Part shown: in pieces, positions 5,827-15,112 of the stretch
How the letters are laid out: the number at the start of each line of letters is the position of its first letter
How positions within the stretch are numbered: the first letter of the stretch is position 1
NCBI RefSeq assembly: GCF_029607905.1
Contig: NZ_JAPHEH010000001.1
Span: 1,331,530-1,395,529, forward strand
Length of the DNA: 64,000 nucleotides
Direction: 5' to 3'
Source: Thiovibrio frasassiensis
GTDB taxonomy: Bacteria; Desulfobacterota; Desulfobulbia; Desulfobulbales; Desulfurivibrionaceae
Notes under the pieces: generated by a model
What the model saw: only the letters and a program-made list of their open reading frames with translations
What the model was told of the DNA's origin: nothing
Database searches by the model: none
Translations under genes and position numbers: made by a program

Positions 5827-6279
5827 TCAGATTTCTTTCATGGCGACGAGTTTCAAGGCATGGGTGGTGCATTTGGTCACGCAGGCCGGTTGCAGCCCGG
5901 CATCCAGGCGGTCCATGCAGTAATCGCATTTCACCGCCTTGTTTGTTTCCGGATTGTGCTGGGGGATACCCCAGGGGCAGGCCCCGGCGCAAGCCATGCA
6001 GCCGATGCATTTCGGCACATCCACATAGACGATGCCGTCTTCCCGTTTTTTCATCGCCTCTGTGGGGCAGATGGTGACACAGAACGGGTCCTCGCAGTGG
6101 TAGCAGGAGCGGAACTTGAATTCGGTTTTGGGAACCCCCCGCACGGATTTGAGCGGTTCATGGCTTATCTCGCAGAGGATCGGACCCACCGGCAGGTTCT
6201 TGTTGGCCTTGCAATGGACCACGCAGCCGTGACAGCCTATGCACCGTTTGCTGTTGAGATACAGGTTGTAGGTGTTCAT
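5827..6279 (-). CDS. Four-cluster ferredoxin subunit of a molybdopterin oxidoreductase (PhsB/PsrB/HycB type)
   Basis: 150 residues with four cysteine groups in the order usual for DMSO-reductase-family electron-transfer subunits: CIGCHGCVVHC, CYHCEDPFCVTICP, CIGCMACAGACP, and a last CDYCMDRL...CVTKC group. These should ligate four [4Fe-4S] clusters. The ATG overlaps the stop of the molybdoenzyme by four bases (ATGA), so the two are translationally coupled. No twin-arginine or Sec signal is present, so the complex should be cytoplasmic. Usual PhsB/PsrB partners include a NrfD-like membrane anchor; none follows here. Confidence 0.93.
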   Translation of the reverse strand: MNTYNLYLNSKRCIGCHGCVVHCKANKNLPVGPILCEISHEPLKSVRGVPKTEFKFRSCYHCEDPFCVTICPTEAMKKREDGIVYVDVPKCIGCMACAGACPWGIPQHNPETNKAVKCDYCMDRLDAGLQPACVTKCTTHALKLVAMKEI

Positions 6280-8390
6280 AGTTCCACCTTCCGTTGATGG
6301 TTTTTAGAGCTTTTTCGCACGGTGACAAAGGTTTCGCAGAGGTTGAGCCCGCCGCCCACGGGGTCCATGTTCTGCAACTGGCCCTTCATGAGTTTTTGGT
6401 CGCTCATGCCCGCATGGTAGGCCCTGGTCTGGAGGGGGATCTGCCGCCCGAAGCCGTGCACGGTATAGACCGCCTCGGGATGGATGAAATCCGTTACCTT
6501 GACCGTGATCACGCAGGTGACATCGCCGGAGATGACATCGACGAAATCTCCTTCGGAAACCCCCATCTTGCTGGCTTCCCGGGTGTTGATCCACAGGGTG
6601 TTTTCCGGCATCATCTCGTTGAGCAAGGGGTTGTTGACCGTGTGGCTGTGGGAATGCAGCGGTGAGCGGCCGAATACCAGACGATACTGCCCTTTCGGCG
6701 GTTTGGCTGGGCTCACGTAAGGCTTCCAGGAGGGAAATCCCCATTCGGTAAGATTCTGGCTGATGATTTCGATCTTGCCGGAAGGGGTTTTGAACTTGCC
6801 CTCGAGTTTCTCCCGGTCGAACATCACCGGTTTGTCAGCGTACTCAACAAAACCCTTTTTCTCGAAATCGGCGATACTGAAGCCCGTGGGTTCCAGCTGC
6901 CAGGCCCAAAGGTCCTGGGGGGTGGCGAAGGGGAAATATTGCTCAAGCCCGAGTCGGGTAGCAAGCCCCCTGATGATGGTGCAGAGGTCAAGGGTGTCGG
7001 CTTGCGGCTCGATAGCTTTGTTGCGCATGATCAGCCGGGGCTTCATCCCCTTTTGCTGGGCGATCATGCTGTCGCGTTCCAGGTAGGTCGATTCGGGCAG
7101 GATCACATCGGAATACCAGCCAAACTCGCTGTAATGGGTGTCGATGGAAACGATCAGGTCGCAGTTGTCCAGTGCCTCTTTCTGGGCCTGCGGGTCGGGA
7201 AAGCAGAGGAAGGGATCGTGGCGAACGCAGATGATTCCCTTGATCGGATAAGGGATACCTGTGGCCATGGCCTTGTAAAAAAGATGGAAGAGTCCCGGTC
7301 CTTTCTCGAAATGTTTGTAGATGTCGCCCACGCCATCGGCTCGTTTGGCGGTCGGCTTGGGTGAGAGTTCGTTGAGGCTGCGGGGGCCTTTTCTGCCGCA
7401 GTCTCCGGCACCCTTGGCAAAGATGAGGCCGCCTTCTACCTCGATATTGCCCATCAGGGCGTTGAGGCAGTTCAAGGCCCGGCTGGCGTAAAAAGAATCG
7501 TTGTAGCGGGAGAGCATCCAGCCCGGATGGAAGATGACCTTGGGTCGGTCGGCTATGAGCTGGTCGACCAGCTCGTGGATGTCCTTGGGTTTGATGCCGC
7601 ACTCCTTGGCCGCCCATTCGGCCGAGTAGTTTTCCACGAAATAGGCCAATTCGTCAAAGCCGGTGGTGTAGCGTTCCACGAAGTCCGCGTCATACCCTTC
7701 CGCCTTGATGATCTCGTGGATCAGGGCCAGGGCCAAGGCGTAATCCGTGCCGGGCCGCACCTGGAAAAAATTGGTTGCCTTGATCCCGGTCAGGGTCTGG
7801 CGCACATCGACATAGGTGAGCTTGCCGCCTTTGTCCAGCATGTCCATGACCTGGTTGACCTCGGCCGGCCTCAGGGAGGAGAGGATGTTGCGGCCGAACA
7901 AAACCAGATGTTTGGCATTCTTGATGTCGTAGATAAACCCCTTGCGGCCCAAGCCGAAGAGGGAGAGGCTGGCATGGTGCACATTCCGGCCGCAGGCGCT
8001 GTCGTGGTTGCTGTAGTTGGGCGAGCCCAAGGCATGGGTGAAGGCCTTGACCAGATCCTGGAACGGGCCGCCCCTGGAGCTGGCCATGATCGATTCCGGG
8101 CCGTGCCGGTCAATGATGGTTTTGAGTTTGTCCGCGATGTAGTCGAGGGCGAATTCCCAGCTCACCGCTTCCCAGCGCCCGGCGCCCCGGCCGCCCCGTC
8201 TGATCAAGGGTTGCTGGGGGCGTTCCTTGTCGGCCACCAGGGAGGGGCCGGCCGAGCCCTTGGCGCACAGGGCGCCTTTCAGGATATGCTGGTTGCCTTC
8301 GAGCCAGGTCACCGTGTTGCCCTCGACCTCGACCCGGATGGGGCAGCGGACGGTACACATGCCGCACATGCTCCAGACTGATTTTTTCAT
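6276..8390 (-). CDS. Molybdopterin (bis-MGD) oxidoreductase, polysulfide/thiosulfate-reductase-like catalytic subunit, no Tat signal
   Basis: 704 residues with the MopB layout: an N-terminal [4Fe-4S] site (CGMCTVRCP...CAKG), the central catalytic domains, and a C-terminal molydopterin-dinucleotide-binding domain starting near the YRLVFGRSP segment. The active-site region reads NHDSACGRN, which suggests a cysteine ligand to Mo/W as in PsrA, PhsA and NapA rather than serine. No RR signal precedes the cluster, so it should stay in the cytoplasm, unlike PhsA/PsrA, which are exported. GTG at 8396 is in frame, but ATG at 8390 has the better spacing to GAGGAG. It lies in an operon with its ferredoxin downstream and a response regulator 38 bases upstream. 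Substrate is not provable; a sulfur compound is suggested by family and TSUP neighbours. Confidence 0.88.
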   Translation of the reverse strand: MKKSVWSMCGMCTVRCPIRVEVEGNTVTWLEGNQHILKGALCAKGSAGPSLVADKERPQQPLIRRGGRGAGRWEAVSWEFALDYIADKLKTIIDRHGPESIMASSRGGPFQDLVKAFTHALGSPNYSNHDSACGRNVHHASLSLFGLGRKGFIYDIKNAKHLVLFGRNILSSLRPAEVNQVMDMLDKGGKLTYVDVRQTLTGIKATNFFQVRPGTDYALALALIHEIIKAEGYDADFVERYTTGFDELAYFVENYSAEWAAKECGIKPKDIHELVDQLIADRPKVIFHPGWMLSRYNDSFYASRALNCLNALMGNIEVEGGLIFAKGAGDCGRKGPRSLNELSPKPTAKRADGVGDIYKHFEKGPGLFHLFYKAMATGIPYPIKGIICVRHDPFLCFPDPQAQKEALDNCDLIVSIDTHYSEFGWYSDVILPESTYLERDSMIAQQKGMKPRLIMRNKAIEPQADTLDLCTIIRGLATRLGLEQYFPFATPQDLWAWQLEPTGFSIADFEKKGFVEYADKPVMFDREKLEGKFKTPSGKIEIISQNLTEWGFPSWKPYVSPAKPPKGQYRLVFGRSPLHSHSHTVNNPLLNEMMPENTLWINTREASKMGVSEGDFVDVISGDVTCVITVKVTDFIHPEAVYTVHGFGRQIPLQTRAYHAGMSDQKLMKGQLQNMDPVGGGLNLCETFVTVRKSSKNHQRKVEL

Positions 8391-8428
8391 GATCACGACT
8401 CCTCTGAAATTTGCATGCCGTGCGTGGG

Positions 8429-8788
8429 TTAATTGGCCAGCGCGGCGGAAACCTTCTGTTCCAGCTCGCTTTTGTCGATGGGTTTTACGCAGTAGTCTGC
8501 TGCGCCAAGGTGCAGGGCCTTTCGGGCGGTTTCAACGGTCGGATAGCCGGTGAGCATGATCACCCGGATCTTCGGGTTCGCACGGCGGAGTGCTGCCAGC
8601 ACGCTGATCCCGTTGGTTTTTTTCAGGTTGATGTCCAAAATTGCCAGGTCCACCTGGTTTTCCATGGCATACCGCATCGCTTCCTGCTCGTCGGTAAAGA
8701 TCGTTACCTGGTGCCCTTTTTTGCTAAGGATTCGCTGGGTCAGTACGGCGGCATCCAGGACATCATCCAAGACGAAAATGTGTGCCAT
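8429..8788 (-). CDS. Single-domain response regulator (CheY-like)
   Basis: 119 residues, only a receiver domain. Acid pair near the N-terminus (LDDV), phospho-acceptor Asp52 in LAILDINL, the switch Thr in MLTGYP, and the conserved Lys in CVKPID are all present, so phosphorylation is expected. No output domain. It is a close relative of the receiver at 14732-15112: both begin MAxIxVLDDVLDA and have KPID. It sits in the molybdoenzyme operon, which is unusual for a receiver-only protein. Inference: it may be phosphorylated by the kinase at 13154-14728 and act by protein contact. Confidence 0.92.
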   Translation of the reverse strand: MAHIFVLDDVLDAAVLTQRILSKKGHQVTIFTDEQEAMRYAMENQVDLAILDINLKKTNGISVLAALRRANPKIRVIMLTGYPTVETARKALHLGAADYCVKPIDKSELEQKVSAALAN

Positions 8789-8843
8789 ACATTTACCCTC
8801 TTTCTGGTGCGCAGGGTGGCTGGCCCAAGGTGTATCCCCAGGC

Positions 8844-8863
8844 CGGAGCCAGGTTCGGCTCCG
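8844..8863. repeat. Short inverted repeat in the gap between TSUP and receiver genes
   Basis: CGGAGCC and GGCTCCG flank a 6-base loop within the 128-base gap before the receiver gene. It has no T tail, so it may attenuate or stabilise mRNA rather than terminate. Confidence 0.4.
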
Positions 8864-8916
8864 CGGCGAGTAAGGGAGGAGTGCGCCGCGGAACCGGATC
8901 TGGACGATTGTTTTGC

Positions 8917-9306
8917 CTAATACAACCCCAACAGCTTAAGGCCGAGCAGTACCAAGCCGACGCACGCAACACGCTTCACCACCAAGGGGCTCAATCGTTT
9001 GGCGATCTGCGGGCCAAGGTAGCCGCCCAACAAAGCGGCGGGAAACATGGAGAGAAAGAGCAGCAGGTCGAAGTTGCCGAACTGCATGTGCCGGATGGTC
9101 GCCATGCCGGTGTTGAAGAAGATGGCCAAGAGCGAGCTGCCGACTACGATATACATGGGCAGCCCCAGCGCGACAGTCATCAGCGGCACCATGAACGGGC
9201 CGCCGCCGAAACCGAACATCGAGGACATTATGGCAATGAGAAAGCCGCCAAGACAGCCGACCCACATGTTGACTTCAAATTCATGACCCCAGAAATCTAC
9301 TTTCAT
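8917..9306 (-). CDS. Half-length TSUP (TauE/SafE) permease, second half
   Basis: 129 residues with about four TM helices and one copy of the TSUP signature (GFGGGPFMVP at 32-41). Full TSUP permeases have about 250 residues and two such inverted half-domains. The gene follows the longer TSUP protein by 24 bases, and that protein also has only one repeat. The most economical reading is that the two make one transporter for a sulfur anion such as sulfite, thiosulfate or sulfoacetate (family knowledge). Start ATG is preceded by AGGAGG-like bases. Confidence 0.88.
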   Translation of the reverse strand: MKVDFWGHEFEVNMWVGCLGGFLIAIMSSMFGFGGGPFMVPLMTVALGLPMYIVVGSSLLAIFFNTGMATIRHMQFGNFDLLLFLSMFPAALLGGYLGPQIAKRLSPLVVKRVACVGLVLLGLKLLGLY

Positions 9307-9330: not shown

Positions 9331-10608
9331 TTATTTTTGGTCCGTGGGACATGACTTGGTGCCTTCCTCGCCCCGTTTGGCACATTCTTCCGCCCGTTTC
9401 TTGAATTCTTTCAGGATGGCTTGTTCTTTTTTGTTTTTCTCAAGATAGCCGGGGGTGGTCTGCCAGAACATCAGGGCGGAGAGCACTAGGAGAATCCAGC
9501 CGAAGGCGAATTTAAACTGATCCAGGGTGATCAACTCGGTGAGCTTTGGTCCGATGAAACCGCCCACCATCATGGCGCAGCCGATGCCGATGCCGAGTTT
9601 CCAGTTGATAAACTTGATCTTTGAGTAGTTGTAGATGCCGGAGCCCTGAGAGAACAGCACGGTGGGCATGACGGTTCCGGCTACGATGGTATGGGGCAGG
9701 GCCGGAAAAATGGAAACCAGGATGGGGTTGAGAATGAAGCCGCCGCCCGCGCCCATAAGTACTCCGAAAATAGAGATGCCCAGAGTGAGCAGGAAGGGCC
9801 AGAGAAGGTTGATGCTGGTGCCTGCAGTGTTAAGGTAGACGATGGGAAAAGATTGTATGTTGTCGAAGCTTGCCACCTCGCTGTTGACCTTTTTGACCGT
9901 TTCTTTGTCTCCGTCCTTGATGCGCTCTGTGACCGCGGTAACGATGACATTATATTTGCCCGGGGCCAGCCCCGTGCGGAGTTTCATTTTGGCCGTGTAT
10001 GCGCCGTCTGGTTGGGTCTCGACTGTGGCGGCTAGCAGATTGTTCACACTGCGGAAGCGGCCTTTCACCAGCTTCATGGATTCGCGTTTGGAATCTTTCT
10101 CGTTCATGGGGTCCAGCAGGTTGCCGCGGGAGCCGAGGATGCTGGCCATGATGGTGGCCTGGTAGCTGTCAATCTTGATTTTAGCCGGGGCATTGTAGGA
10201 GGCGTCGGCGCCGATCTTCTTCAGCACTTCTGAATATTTCCAGCCGCTGCCAGCATTCCTGGCTGCTTCCAACTCCGGTTCCATGTCTTTGGGTACGAAA
10301 ATTTTGTAGAATGCCGGCAGTTCATGGGTCAGGTAAAATTTGTAGGGAATTTTGCCGGTTTTGGGGTCTTTCTTGCTGTCGAAACGGTTGGCGCGTACCA
10401 TCTTGTCTGCTGCGTAGACCTCGACATAAACCTGGGCGCCTGCAGGAGCCTGGCCGCTGACGGTGATCTCGCCACCGTTGTTCAGGGAGGGTTTGTCGAG
10501 AGTAATGGTTGGAGCAGGGGCTTCCTCTTTAGCCTGTGCCTGCTGGGTGATGGGCAAGGCCATCATCACCAGCGCAAGTAACGGCACCATGCTGAACTTA
10601 ACTTTCAT
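9331..10608 (-). CDS. TSUP (TauE/SafE) permease first half with large N-terminal extracytoplasmic domain
   Basis: 425 residues from ATG 10608, which has an AGGAGG site. A Sec signal peptide covers about 1-26 (ends AQA). A soluble, probably beta-rich periplasmic domain follows at about 30-265, containing SGQAPAGAQVYVEV. Then come about four TM helices (268-385) with one TSUP signature GAGGGFILNP at 286-295, and a charged cytoplasmic tail with two cysteines. An upstream in-frame ATG at 10716 would add 36 residues before the signal peptide and is unlikely. A sigma-54 promoter lies about 195 bases upstream. Inference: the periplasmic domain binds or delivers the transported sulfur compound. Confidence 0.88.
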   Translation of the reverse strand: MKVKFSMVPLLALVMMALPITQQAQAKEEAPAPTITLDKPSLNNGGEITVSGQAPAGAQVYVEVYAADKMVRANRFDSKKDPKTGKIPYKFYLTHELPAFYKIFVPKDMEPELEAARNAGSGWKYSEVLKKIGADASYNAPAKIKIDSYQATIMASILGSRGNLLDPMNEKDSKRESMKLVKGRFRSVNNLLAATVETQPDGAYTAKMKLRTGLAPGKYNVIVTAVTERIKDGDKETVKKVNSEVASFDNIQSFPIVYLNTAGTSINLLWPFLLTLGISIFGVLMGAGGGFILNPILVSIFPALPHTIVAGTVMPTVLFSQGSGIYNYSKIKFINWKLGIGIGCAMMVGGFIGPKLTELITLDQFKFAFGWILLVLSALMFWQTTPGYLEKNKKEQAILKEFKKRAEECAKRGEEGTKSCPTDQK

Positions 10609-10801
10609 ACCATCCACCTCCTGTCTAAATGAGAATGATTTTTTGTAAGACGGCTTCTCCCTAAGTTCCCCCTGTTGTGCCGTTGCACCTCCTTTGTGTT
10701 TTTCATTGACCGACAAGCGCGGATGCTTGCTGAATTACGCGCTTGATACGTATTGGTTGAAGTTGAGGAGGGTGGCAGATGCCTCCTCATGGTTTTAGAA
10801 A

Positions 10802-10818
10802 AGCAATAAGAGTGCCAC
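10802..10818 (-). promoter_or_regulatory. Sigma-54 (-24/-12) promoter
   Basis: On the minus strand TGGCAC, five bases, then TTGC: a full match to the core sigma-54 consensus with correct spacing. Transcription would start near 10790 and run into the TSUP genes, and possibly through the receiver, molybdoenzyme and ferredoxin. The NtrC-type activator gene lies immediately upstream on the same strand. Confidence 0.8.
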
Positions 10819-10945
10819 TTGGGTGGAGGAGGGCTTGATTGTTTGTATCGGTTTGAATTTGTGCGGAAGTTGTTGTTTTATTGCTGCGGATAGCAGGTGT
10901 GGAAAGGGAGGGAAAGAGGTCTGGCGGTGCAGTAAAAAATATGCA

Positions 10946-10962
10946 CCGCAACTTTATTGCGG
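10946..10962 (-). terminator. Inverted repeat: likely terminator of the NtrC-type gene, or activator site
   Basis: CCGCAA and TTGCGG around a 5-base spacer, 63 bases after the regulator stop. Read on the minus strand it is followed by an ATATTTTTT tract, which favours a weak terminator. It is also about 135 bases upstream of the sigma-54 promoter, a normal place for an enhancer site. Confidence 0.45.
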
Positions 10963-11025
10963 CGCCTGTGGTCTGCGGAAAGATGCTGGGTGTTATAGGC
11001 TTTGGAAAGCCGGGAGGGGAGGAGC

Positions 11026-12501
11026 TTAGTGGTCTGGCTGAGTGCGGAATTTATCCGCGACAAGACCAAAGCGACGCATGAGTTTTTGAAAGGCCTGCCG
11101 GTTCATGCCGCTTGCCAGGGCGGCGGCCGTTACGTTGCCGCATTTTTGCTGCAGGGCGTGGGTCAGATAAGCGGCGGAGAACTCCTCCACCAATTGCTGT
11201 TTGGCAAGGTTGTAATGCAGCCCGTGCAGATCATGGTCAATCGTTTGGGAGGCGGGGGCTTCCGTTTCCGGTTCCCGCAGCTGTCCGGCAGAGATGGGGA
11301 TCTCATCATCGGCAAGCAATACCGCCCGCTTGATAACATTCTGAAGTTCTCGGACATTTCCTTTCCAGTGCCGTTTCACCAAGGAGGGGAGGGCATCCGC
11401 AGCAAAAATTAACCCCTCGTGGTTATATTCCTTGGCAAAGAGCGCGAGAAAATGTTGCGCCAGGGGAGGGATGTCTTCCGGCCGTTCCCGAAGCGGCGGG
11501 ACGGTGATGGTCACCACATTGAGGCGGTAGAAAAGATCTTCCCGGAAAAGCCCCTGGCGCATTTTCTCCTCCAGATCCTGGTTGGTCGAGGCCAGCACCC
11601 GGACATCCACGGCCAGGCTTTTTGTCTGGCCCAAGGGCATGATCTCTTTTTCCTGGAGCACCCGGAGCAGCTTGGTCTGGAGGGCAATGGGAAGATCGCC
11701 TATTTCGTCGAGCAGGATGGTTGAGGTGTTGGCTTCGAGAAACAACCCTTTCTTGTCGTGGTTCGCGCCGGAGAAAGCGCCCTTGGCATAGCCGAAGAGC
11801 TCGCTTTCCAGGATCTGTTCCGGCAGAGCGGGGCAGTTCACCGTGACCATGGGTTTTTTATTTCTTGCGCTCAGCCCATGCAGGGAGCGGGCGGCCAACT
11901 CCTTGCCCGTGCCCGATTCGCCTCGGATCAGCACGGTGACATCGGTATCGGCAAGCCTGCCGATCAGCCTGTAGACCTCTTTGATTTTTGAGGATCTGCC
12001 AATAAATCCGGGGAAGGACTCCTGATCCGCCAGGCGACTCTGGAGGCGGCGGTTTTTTTCGAGCAGGCAGAGGTGTTCCAGGCAGCGTTGCAGGATATGC
12101 AGCAGATGTTCTTGGTCAAAGGGCTTCTGGATAAAATCATAGGCCCCGTTTTTCAGGGCGGTAATAGCAGATTCCACGGTGCCGTGGCCGCTCATCATGA
12201 CCACGGCGACGGCCGGATACTCTTTTTTGATGTTTTTCAGCAGCGTCAGGCCATCCAGCCCCGGCATCTTGATATCGGTCAAGACAAGGTCCGGATGCCA
12301 CTCTTGCAGAATCTCCCAGGCCTTTTCCCCGGAGGGAGCGGTTTTCACCTCGCACCGGCATTTTTTGCGCACGACCCGTTCCAGCATGGCGAGCATGTCG
12401 AGGTCATCGTCAACGATGAGGACAGAGGGGGAAAATTCCCCTTCCGGGCAGGAAAAATTGGTCTGTTCTGCGGTCACGCAAGCATCTCCGGCAAGAGTCA
12501 T
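11026..12501 (-). CDS. NtrC-family sigma-54-dependent response regulator
   Basis: 491 residues: receiver domain (acids at VDDD, phospho-Asp76 in LVLTDIKMP), AAA+ domain with Walker A GESGTGKE at 194-201, and a C-terminal Fis-type helix-turn-helix (NVTAAALASGMNRQAFQKLM). The sigma-54 contact loop reads GAFSGA instead of GAFTGA, a conservative change. It should activate sigma-54 promoters; the consensus one at 10802-10818 is just downstream. ATG 12501 has no clear ribosome-binding site; GTG at 12477 has GGAG eight bases before it and may be the true start. Divergent from the membrane protein/kinase/receiver operon at 12678-15112, its probable signalling partners. Confidence 0.95.
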   Translation of the reverse strand: MTLAGDACVTAEQTNFSCPEGEFSPSVLIVDDDLDMLAMLERVVRKKCRCEVKTAPSGEKAWEILQEWHPDLVLTDIKMPGLDGLTLLKNIKKEYPAVAVVMMSGHGTVESAITALKNGAYDFIQKPFDQEHLLHILQRCLEHLCLLEKNRRLQSRLADQESFPGFIGRSSKIKEVYRLIGRLADTDVTVLIRGESGTGKELAARSLHGLSARNKKPMVTVNCPALPEQILESELFGYAKGAFSGANHDKKGLFLEANTSTILLDEIGDLPIALQTKLLRVLQEKEIMPLGQTKSLAVDVRVLASTNQDLEEKMRQGLFREDLFYRLNVVTITVPPLRERPEDIPPLAQHFLALFAKEYNHEGLIFAADALPSLVKRHWKGNVRELQNVIKRAVLLADDEIPISAGQLREPETEAPASQTIDHDLHGLHYNLAKQQLVEEFSAAYLTHALQQKCGNVTAAALASGMNRQAFQKLMRRFGLVADKFRTQPDH

Positions 12502-12677
12502 GGTGTGGGGACGGTTTATGGCCAGCTCCTCTTTGAATGCCCCATTTCTCTAAAAAAATCAACATGTTCTTGTCTCTTTTTGCTGCCGGTTCAGCCCGAT
12601 ATCCCTTGCGTCAGCCCGGACAACCTGCTAATTGTGAACATGCAACTGCACATTCTGGTGAGTGGGGGGGATTTCGG

Positions 12678-13154
12678 ATGAAAAGACACGCTTTCCTGCT
12701 GGGCTGCGTTTTTTTGCTCTGTTGGCACACCCCCGCGTGGGCGGTTCAGGGGCATGGGGTGGCGGAAGGCCCGGTGGTGCATCTGATGGCCCATCTGCTC
12801 TTGTTTGTGGCCCTGTTGCTGTTGCTCTATGTTCTGCACACCCGGCCGCCGGACACCGGATTGTCCTGGCGCTCCCTCAAGCTCTCGCTGCTTTTTTTCC
12901 TTCTTTGGGATGTGGACCATCTCTTTATCCACTGGTTTGCCGGGGGGATGTACCCCGATATCAAAGATTCGGGTGCCAGCCTGGTGGGAGATTATTTTGT
13001 CGGCTCCCGGACTCTGCTCAATCTCATCTATTATTGGGGGAGGTTTGATCACCTGCTCTGTGTGCCGGCTCTTTGGTTTTTTACCAGCGCCCTGCGTGAT
13101 TTCTCCGAGGTCATCGAGAAGCGGCGGCATAACCGGGCCGGGCAGGTTTCCTGA
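12678..13154 (+). CDS. Small membrane protein of a histidine kinase operon, function unknown
   Basis: 158 residues from ATG 12678. N-terminal signal-like segment ending AWA, then about three hydrophobic helices; contains WDVDHLFIHWFAGGMYPD, and histidine, tryptophan and acidic residues near membrane boundaries. I do not recognise a named family. Its stop overlaps the kinase start by one base (TGATG), so the two are coupled. The kinase has its own membrane-embedded N-terminus and no periplasmic domain. Inference: this protein is a sensing or accessory partner for it. Confidence 0.8.
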   Translation: MKRHAFLLGCVFLLCWHTPAWAVQGHGVAEGPVVHLMAHLLLFVALLLLLYVLHTRPPDTGLSWRSLKLSLLFFLLWDVDHLFIHWFAGGMYPDIKDSGASLVGDYFVGSRTLLNLIYYWGRFDHLLCVPALWFFTSALRDFSEVIEKRRHNRAGQVS

Positions 13155-14728
13155 TGGAAGAGGTCTTTAATCTTCCCCTCTTCCCCGTCTACATGGTGGA
13201 TTATCTCGGCGCCACCGTGATGGTCATTCTCGCTTTTTGCGCCCTGGTTTTTGCCCGGCGTCTCACCCGGCTGGAACCGAAAAACATCCTCTGGGCGTAT
13301 TTCTTCTGGTTTTCCGTGGTCATGGTGGTTTTTTCCATTTCTCGCGGCATGGGCCATCTTTTGCCCTATGCCTTCCGGCTTGCCCATCTGCCGGAGGTGT
13401 GGGATACCCTCGACCCTTATAGCGGGGGATTGAACACCATCGCCCTTTGCGGGGTGGCGATTCTGACCCTGCACTATCATAGTACCGCGGTTTTGATCAA
13501 CCGGGCCAAGATGGACGCGCTTTCCTTGGAGATTGCCAATGACAGGCTCCGCGAGGCGCATGCCGACCTGTCCCGCCTGAATCAGACCCTGGAACAGCAG
13601 GTGGAGGAGCGTACCCACGATTTGCGGCTGTCCGAGGAGAAATTTCGCGGCTTTTTTGAAGGCTCGAAGGATATGATCTATTTTTGTGATGCGGCGGGCA
13701 GATTCTCCGACATCAACGAAAGCGGTCTGCGGCTCCTCGGAGTCGCACGGCGGCAGGATATTGTCGGGCAATCCCTGGCCGAGTTTTTTCTCGATCGTGA
13801 GCGTGGGGCGCAGTATCGTGCCCTGTTATTCTCGACCGGGCAGGTCAAGGATTTCGAGGCGGAATTTGTCGGCCGGGAGGATGGTCCGTTGTACCTGATG
13901 ATGACCGCCTCAGCCATTACGGATCGGGAAGGCCGGTCCCTGGGATATCAAGGGATTGCCAAGGATCTCACCCACTTCAAGAAGATGATGGAGCAGTTGG
14001 TCCATTCCGAAAAGATGACCTCTGTGGGCCAGCTTGCCGCCGGCGTTGCCCACGAAATCAATACCCCGCTCGGGATTATCCTTGGCTATGCGCAGCTGCT
14101 CGAAGAGGATTTTGAGGAGCAGAGCGAGGTGCATGAGACTCTGGGGATCATCGAAAAACAGGCGAAGATCTGTCGGCGGATCGTTGCCGATTTGTTGAAT
14201 TTTTCGCGACAGACCCAGGAGCACAACAAGCTCTATGGCGATCTCAATCAGTGCCTGGAAGAGGTGCTGGCCATTGTCAATCACACTCTAAATATGGACC
14301 ATATTTTCATCCATCGCTGCCTTGCCGAAAATCTGCCCAATACCTGCTTTGACAACGAGCGGCTGCGCCAGGTCTTTGTCAATCTCTTGACCAATGCCCA
14401 CCATGCCATCGGCAGCGAAGGGATTATCGGGGTCTGGACCCGCTGGCATAAGGAGAGCGACCAGATCGAGATCATCATCGGCGATTCCGGCTCCGGTATC
14501 CCCCAGGATCAGCTGGGGAGAATCTTTGATCCTTTTTACACCACCAAGGGGGTTGGCAAGGGCACTGGCTTGGGGTTGTCCGTTTCCTTCGGCATTATCC
14601 AGGATCATAAAGGGCGGATCGAGGTTAAGTCCCCGCCGCTCGAGCCCGAGCTGGTCACCCTGGACATGCATACGACCTTTCACATCTTCCTGCCGATTAT
14701 TTCAGCAAGTCAGGAAAAGGAGCAATAA
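13154..14728 (+). CDS. Membrane PAS sensor histidine kinase
   Basis: 524 residues: about three N-terminal TM helices within 1-110, a coiled linker (LREAHADLSRLNQTLEQQ), a PAS domain at about 165-270, a HisKA domain with phospho-His in GVAHEINTPLG, and a HATPase domain with N box (NLLTNAHHAI), G1 (GDSGSGIP) and G2 (GTGLGLSV). There is almost no periplasmic part, so the signal is probably within the membrane or cytoplasm. Operon: membrane protein upstream (1-base overlap), receiver downstream (3-base gap). Probable donor for the two CheY-like receivers and perhaps the NtrC-type regulator. Confidence 0.95.
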   Translation: MEEVFNLPLFPVYMVDYLGATVMVILAFCALVFARRLTRLEPKNILWAYFFWFSVVMVVFSISRGMGHLLPYAFRLAHLPEVWDTLDPYSGGLNTIALCGVAILTLHYHSTAVLINRAKMDALSLEIANDRLREAHADLSRLNQTLEQQVEERTHDLRLSEEKFRGFFEGSKDMIYFCDAAGRFSDINESGLRLLGVARRQDIVGQSLAEFFLDRERGAQYRALLFSTGQVKDFEAEFVGREDGPLYLMMTASAITDREGRSLGYQGIAKDLTHFKKMMEQLVHSEKMTSVGQLAAGVAHEINTPLGIILGYAQLLEEDFEEQSEVHETLGIIEKQAKICRRIVADLLNFSRQTQEHNKLYGDLNQCLEEVLAIVNHTLNMDHIFIHRCLAENLPNTCFDNERLRQVFVNLLTNAHHAIGSEGIIGVWTRWHKESDQIEIIIGDSGSGIPQDQLGRIFDPFYTTKGVGKGTGLGLSVSFGIIQDHKGRIEVKSPPLEPELVTLDMHTTFHIFLPIISASQEKEQ

Positions 14729-14731
14729 TAG

Positions 14732-15112
14732 GTGGCGCAGATTCTGGTGTTGGACGATGTGCTGGACGCGGGGATTCTGATTCAGAGGATTCTGCAGAAG
14801 AAGGGCCATGAGGTGCATGTCTTCCATGACGAGGATGAGGCGCTCCGCTACGTCGAGAAAAACCAGGTGGATCTGGCCATTCTCGATATGAACCTGCGCA
14901 AGATGGACGGGTTGGACGTATTGTGCGAGATGCAGAAGTCGTTGCCGCGTCTGCCGGCGATCATGCTGACCGGGTTGCCCAAGGCCGAGATGGCCAAACA
15001 GGCGTTTTCCCTTGGGGCGGTAGCCTATTGTGCCAAGCCCATCGACAAAGAGCGGCTGGAAGAGAGGGTGGCCGAGGCCCTGTTGGAGGGGGCGGATCTG
15101 CCGGAGCAGTAA
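14732..15112 (+). CDS. Single-domain response regulator, paralogue of 8429-8788
   Basis: 126 residues, receiver only, GTG start. LDDV acid pair, Asp52 in LAILDMNL, Thr in MLTGLP, Lys in CAKPID. Nearly the same N-terminus and phosphorylation surroundings as the receiver in the molybdoenzyme operon, so the two descend from a recent duplication or are kept alike by sharing a kinase. Follows the histidine kinase by three bases. Confidence 0.93.
   Translation: MAQILVLDDVLDAGILIQRILQKKGHEVHVFHDEDEALRYVEKNQVDLAILDMNLRKMDGLDVLCEMQKSLPRLPAIMLTGLPKAEMAKQAFSLGAVAYCAKPIDKERLEERVAEALLEGADLPEQ

Follow-up and report, generated by a model that had tools for sequence, protein, structure and literature searches.

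Genes and features of the locus

The window analyzed here, a stretch of 64,000 nucleotides from Thiovibrio frasassiensis, carries on its minus strand an NtrC-type response regulator gene followed by genes for a TSUP transporter, a receiver-domain protein, a molybdoenzyme and its Fe-S partner, with a kinase operon reading divergently from the regulator gene (Table 1).

Table 1. Features of the locus, in window coordinates
Feature	Position	Strand	Basis
4Fe-4S electron-transfer subunit, DmsB-like	5827..6279	minus	Pfam, NCBIfam
Molybdopterin oxidoreductase, PsrA/PhsA-like	6276..8396	minus	Pfam; 2vpw best solved relative
Stand-alone receiver-domain protein	8429..8788	minus	Pfam Response_reg
TSUP-small: second TauE/SafE half	8917..9306	minus	Pfam TauE 125-237; very conserved
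TSUP-large: signal-like N-terminus, beta-rich N-terminal domain, first TauE/SafE half	9331..10608	minus	Pfam TauE 2-114; model
Predicted 5' untranslated region, about 183 nt	10609..10791	minus	alignment; conserved near ribosome-binding site
Sigma-54 -24/-12 promoter element TGGCACTCTTATTGC	10803..10817	minus	exact match and conservation in 15 species
IHF-like box ATTCAAACCGATA (relatives AATCAAnnnGATA)	10846..10858	minus	footprint conserved in 15 species
Candidate enhancer (UAS) dyad GCGGTGCA-TATTTTTTAC-TGCACCGC	10924..10949	minus	genome-unique; conserved in relatives
NtrC-type response regulator: receiver, sigma-54 activation AAA+ domain, Fis-type HTH	11026..12501	minus	Pfam, sequence
Divergent membrane protein, family unassigned	12537..13154	plus	sequence; likelier start 12678
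PAS-containing histidine kinase	13154..14728	plus	Pfam
Second stand-alone receiver-domain protein	14732..15112	plus	NCBIfam receiver matches

The regulator has the domain set of the NtrC family, namely a receiver, an AAA+ domain with Walker motifs and a Fis-type HTH, the Pfam HTH_8 match of which (E 9e-4) falls just under the cut-off. It carries GESGTGKE, and its loop reads GAFSGA in place of GAFTGA. Scored against the NCBIfam ntrC model it reached 424 bits, below the equivalog cut-off of 558.6, and it is thus not assigned to NtrC proper (NR(I)). The genome encodes one RpoN, 22 strong sigma-54 activator domains and five HU/IHF-family genes. The divergent membrane protein had no match in Pfam or NCBIfam and is probably a partner of the kinase; it adjoins the kinase across the order and may represent a new family of sensor partners.

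Both halves of the TauE profile are covered only by TSUP-large and TSUP-small together, and it is as a pair that they constitute a TSUP transporter. A sequencing error was rejected as the origin of the split, since TSUP-small is equipped with a separate ribosome-binding site and start, and dozens of genomes share the split. The split falls at the boundary of the two repeat halves and is conserved in Desulfobulbales and Nitrospirota, and unsplit counterparts of 564-582 aa occur near the same activator in other genomes. Residues 31-250 of TSUP-large were confidently modelled as a beta-rich, Ig-like N-terminal domain; a structure search with TSUP-large returned no significant fold match, and the half transporter gave a poor structural model.

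The molybdoenzyme scored 380 bits against 2vpw, the Thermus thiosulfate/polysulfide reductase, and 505.7 bits against the PhsA model, below its cut-off of 694, so that it is not called PhsA. It has no obvious Tat signal, its N-terminus (VIMKKSVWSMCGMC) running directly into the Fe-S motif. No gene for a membrane anchor subunit (PhsC/PsrC) lies between 5827 and 10608, and the operon contains no gene for a TorD-type chaperone. A convergent gene, EF-G-like by sequence reading, comes after the Fe-S gene. Between TSUP-small and the receiver gene, the minus strand at 8789-8916 would form a strong RNA hairpin with a stem of about 20 bp and without a T-run, kept in about 10 genus members with several two-sided changes; it had no Rfam match.

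The -24/-12 element and the sequences around it

Read on the minus strand from 10817 to 10802, the gap between the NtrC-type and TSUP-large genes contains TGGCACTCTTATTGCT, in which TGGCAC is followed after 5 nt by TTGC and then by T. The -24 GG and the -12 GC are thus present with the spacing of a sigma-54 promoter, and compared with the longer consensus TGGCAYR-N4-TTGCW the element shows a single soft mismatch, T for R at position 7. This agrees with the original prediction, which had placed a full match to the sigma-54 core at this point on the coding strand; the site precedes the TSUP-large ATG (10608) by 209 nt. The same gap, on its minus strand, showed no sigma-70-like promoter.

TGGCAC-N5-TTGC occurs exactly once in the 64 kb, counting both strands, compared with 0.21 exact matches expected from shuffled windows, 19 of 100 of which contained at least one. 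By its letters alone, the site is therefore only mildly unusual in the window. Across the genome, 20 exact copies were counted versus 4 for a reversed-pattern control, which indicated that most exact copies in the genome are likely functional; the letters alone do not settle any single sigma-54 site.

An alignment of 15 species was more informative. The original prediction had proposed a search of related genomes for the same -24/-12 element and for a conserved palindrome upstream, and both were found. The GGCA and TTGCT columns are invariant in all 15, the sixth site base is C or T, and the column preceding TTGC has one exception. Mean identity over the 16 columns of the site is 0.93, and over flanks of about 80 columns each it is 0.72 upstream and 0.68 downstream; the compared species are related, and this conservation is not fully independent. 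The site is retained among relatives even as its distance to the ATG ranges from 109 to 248 nt. A Desulfocapsa-like group has TGGC[GT][CT]CATTATTGCT or TGGCGTTATTTTTGCT 172-186 nt before the same TSUP gene, at loci without an adjacent NtrC gene. On this comparative evidence, we regard the element as a real, conserved sigma-54 promoter.

The palindrome is an AT-cored dyad of the form GCGGTGCA-N10-TGCACCGC, centred about 120 bp upstream of the -24 element and lying within a wider conserved element (10924-10965). Within the genus it takes the form GTGCCGCAAAAAAGATGCGGTGCATATTTTTTGCGGCAC, and both of its sides vary, as in GTGCAGC/GCTGCAC and GTGCCTC/GAGGCAC. No second match to the core GTGCATATTTTTTACTGCAC was found in the genome at up to 3 mismatches, while a search for GGTGCA-N10-TGCACC with 1 mismatch returned 13 other places. 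Position and sequence of the dyad are conserved in relatives both with and without an adjacent NtrC gene, its distance to the -24 element being 110-121 bp in 11 of the 13 scored genus and near-genus loci and 116-117 bp in the Desulfocapsa-like group. Among 80 loci fetched by TSUP-large similarity, 26 had, immediately in front of the TSUP gene, both a sigma-54-like site and a dyad scoring 10 of 12 or better. After block shuffling, these 80 loci gave 4 dyad-site pairs in total, at any position in 817 kb. Some genus members fell under the dyad threshold, yet the element is visible in the alignment, and two loci (L141 and L146) have a perfect GGTGCA-N10-TGCACC, but at 311-313 bp from the site. Loci in other families have related TGCA...TGCA dyads before the first gene of the module, whether this encodes the membrane protein, a receiver or the Fe-S protein. 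Taken together, the dyad is the best candidate for an enhancer at this promoter.

Between the dyad and the promoter lies the IHF-like box, resembling the IHF consensus WATCARxxxxTTR (PMC3897727). In the window it reads ATTCAA, one base off the AATCAA core, and relatives carry AATCAAnnnGATA.

Counting from the C of TTGC at -12, transcription is predicted to start at about 10791, in agreement with the start near 10790 claimed originally. A riboswitch in the resulting leader was considered and rejected, as a search of 10400-13300 gave no Rfam hit at or above the gathering score and single-sequence leader folds differ among relatives. A leader ORF of 26 codons overlapping the TSUP start was likewise set aside, being open in most Desulfocapsa-like loci and unconserved in the genus of the window. 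In nine Desulfocapsa-like loci (L092-L096, L100, L101, L103 and L104), and in that group only, this ORF lies some 77 nt upstream of the TSUP ATG, carries a separate ribosome-binding site and ends with a stop overlapping the TSUP start codon.

Reach of the transcript, identity of the activator and role of the dyad

The promoter might serve the two TSUP genes only, with the receiver, molybdoenzyme and Fe-S genes having a promoter of their own or being cut off by the hairpin at 8789-8916. The 128-nt gap before the receiver gene does hold that conserved, strong hairpin, and the molybdoenzyme gene does not come after the TSUP genes in one further locus (L080) or in the Desulfocapsa-like group. However, most genus members, as well as families whose TSUP is unsplit, keep these genes on one strand and in the same order, and the hairpin lacks a T-run. 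We therefore consider a transcript confined to the TSUP genes unlikely, and a single transcription unit reaching the Fe-S gene is the preferred reading.

A second question is which activator fires the promoter, since the genome has 22 activator domains, any other of which might act here in place of the neighbouring NtrC-type protein. The Desulfocapsa-like loci (L092-L104) keep site and dyad without an NtrC gene beside them, and L142 has an excellent site although the activator at that locus is only 36% identical. Nevertheless, Desulfocapsa-like genomes were found to have an ortholog of the activator elsewhere, either about 5 kb away (L093) or on other contigs (G047 and G056), and other families repeat related TGCA...TGCA dyads in front of the module's kinase, receiver or Fe-S operons.

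Activator and TSUP genes also co-occur and stay together even where the transporter has been replaced. With thresholds that we set at E <1e-60 for TSUP-large and E <=1e-145 for the activator, 18 genomes had both, 15 neither, 2 TSUP-large only and 4 the activator only (Fisher p 1.7e-5, uncorrected for kinship). In each of the four activator-only genomes, a different TSUP gene lies no more than about 6 kb away on the same contig. Two members of the window's genus have neither gene. Three loci from two other families of the order (L199, L206 and L207, in G050, G066 and G081) encode an activator ortholog of 60-61% identity followed on the same strand by an unsplit TSUP of 564-576 aa, which is only 26-28% identical to TSUP-large. 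The gap between them contains a strong sigma-54 site (TGGCACCGTTATTGCT, TGGCATTAAACTTGCT and TGGCATTGAATTTGCT) and dyad sequences of the TGCATC/GATGCA type. In G037 (L201), activator, membrane protein, kinase, receiver, unsplit TSUP and molybdoenzyme stand in one row. Since the order of NtrC gene, sigma-54 site and TSUP gene is kept with a non-orthologous, unsplit TSUP, the association of activator, promoter and TSUP survives replacement of the transporter. Some TSUP loci (for example L117, L125, L136 and L149) have no such site or dyad, so the link between promoter and TSUP is not universal. Overall, control by an activator other than the neighbouring one appears quite improbable.

The conserved dyad could also be the transcription terminator of the NtrC gene and nothing else. 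In the window it begins about 60 bp past the NtrC stop and forms a 10-bp stem, after which comes ATATTTTTTA. Against a terminator only, the fixed distance to the promoter is also kept at loci (L092 and L101) that lack an upstream NtrC gene and whose closest gene on that side is distant or on the opposite strand. Furthermore, within the genus 92% of position pairs of the wide dyad are preserved and both of its sides show changes; the corresponding value for the terminator stem, counting G-U, is 81%. We thus give little credence to a terminator as the sole function, although a dual role as enhancer and terminator is possible. Finally, that the site is a chance match and another element the true promoter is highly improbable, for although 19 of 100 shuffled windows held an exact hit, chance would not explain the column conservation, the constant spacing to the dyad and the recurrence in other families.

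Proposed control of the operon and its relation to known systems

Building on the site, the dyad and their conservation, the gene order and the protein families, all of which were established by computation, we propose that a working sigma-54 promoter, fired through the dyad by the neighbouring, kinase-activated NtrC-type regulator, transcribes the TSUP/molybdoenzyme operon (probability roughly 0.85). The PAS kinase, probably with its small membrane partner, would phosphorylate the regulator, and the active oligomer would bind the dyad. Looping of the DNA, possibly assisted by IHF, would carry the regulator to the sigma-54 RNA polymerase on 10817-10803, where ATP hydrolysis would open the promoter. 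Transcription would then run from about 10791 through TSUP-large, TSUP-small and the receiver gene, and the same transcript probably continues to the PsrA/PhsA-like molybdoenzyme and its Fe-S partner, with the RNA hairpin possibly modulating it. A sulfur compound is a plausible substrate for the operon.

The original prediction that the promoter links the NtrC-type activator to the TSUP and molybdoenzyme genes is supported by the conservation of the site, the dyad, the gene order across families and the co-occurrence of activator and TSUP. It had further tied the kinase operon to the handling of sulfur compounds; here the activator-TSUP link is supported, and the sulfur part is plausible from the family resemblance of the TSUP and PsrA/PhsA-like proteins.

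Our literature search found no paper on this operon. In the sigma-54 regulome of D. vulgaris, TSUP or PSE transporters are found in nine operons, and one TSUP operon, DVU0132-DVU0133, has two response-regulator activators binding upstream of it (PMC4641369). These activators, DVU0110 and DVUA0057 of strain Hildenborough, provide an analogous arrangement of response-regulator sigma-54 activator, conserved binding motif, sigma-54 promoter and TSUP operon. However, they are not encoded beside their target and are linked to exopolysaccharide, and no molybdoenzyme has been described in the DVU0132-DVU0133 system (PMC4641369). With sigma-54 control of TSUP operons already described in D. vulgaris, the operon studied here would fit a known kind of control. 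The orp operons, under NtrC-family two-component control, would share the order of enhancer, IHF site and -24/-12 element but differ in activator, targets and motif (PMC3897727).

PhsA/PsrA-type reductases such as that of Thermus (2vpw) have catalytic and 4Fe-4S subunits of the same families, and the operon here differs from them in that no Tat signal was seen, no membrane anchor is encoded and the score lies below the PhsA cut-off. The MOLY cluster of sulfur disproportionators, also from Desulfobacterota, likewise has molybdopterin A and B subunits but no membrane anchor; export is predicted for the MOLY proteins, which are accompanied by a TorD-type chaperone, whereas the operon here showed neither feature (PMC12998232).

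More tentatively, the locus may exemplify a previously undescribed signalling and redox module of the whole order Desulfobulbales. In it, a kinase whose membrane partner belongs to a new family, two stand-alone receivers and a dedicated NtrC-type activator would control, via one type of TGCA-N10-TGCA enhancer, the split TSUP transporter and the soluble PsrA-like enzyme, the two jointly handling a reduced sulfur species, perhaps during disproportionation. Sulfate reducers and sulfur disproportionators have abundant TSUP transporters, and at present the substrates of those in sulfate reducers cannot be predicted (PMC5840216). At this locus, a conserved, dedicated activator, enhancer and promoter would tie one TSUP transporter to a PsrA-like molybdoenzyme and a sensor kinase. 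The inducer of the promoter would thus offer a direct route to the substrate of the transporter.
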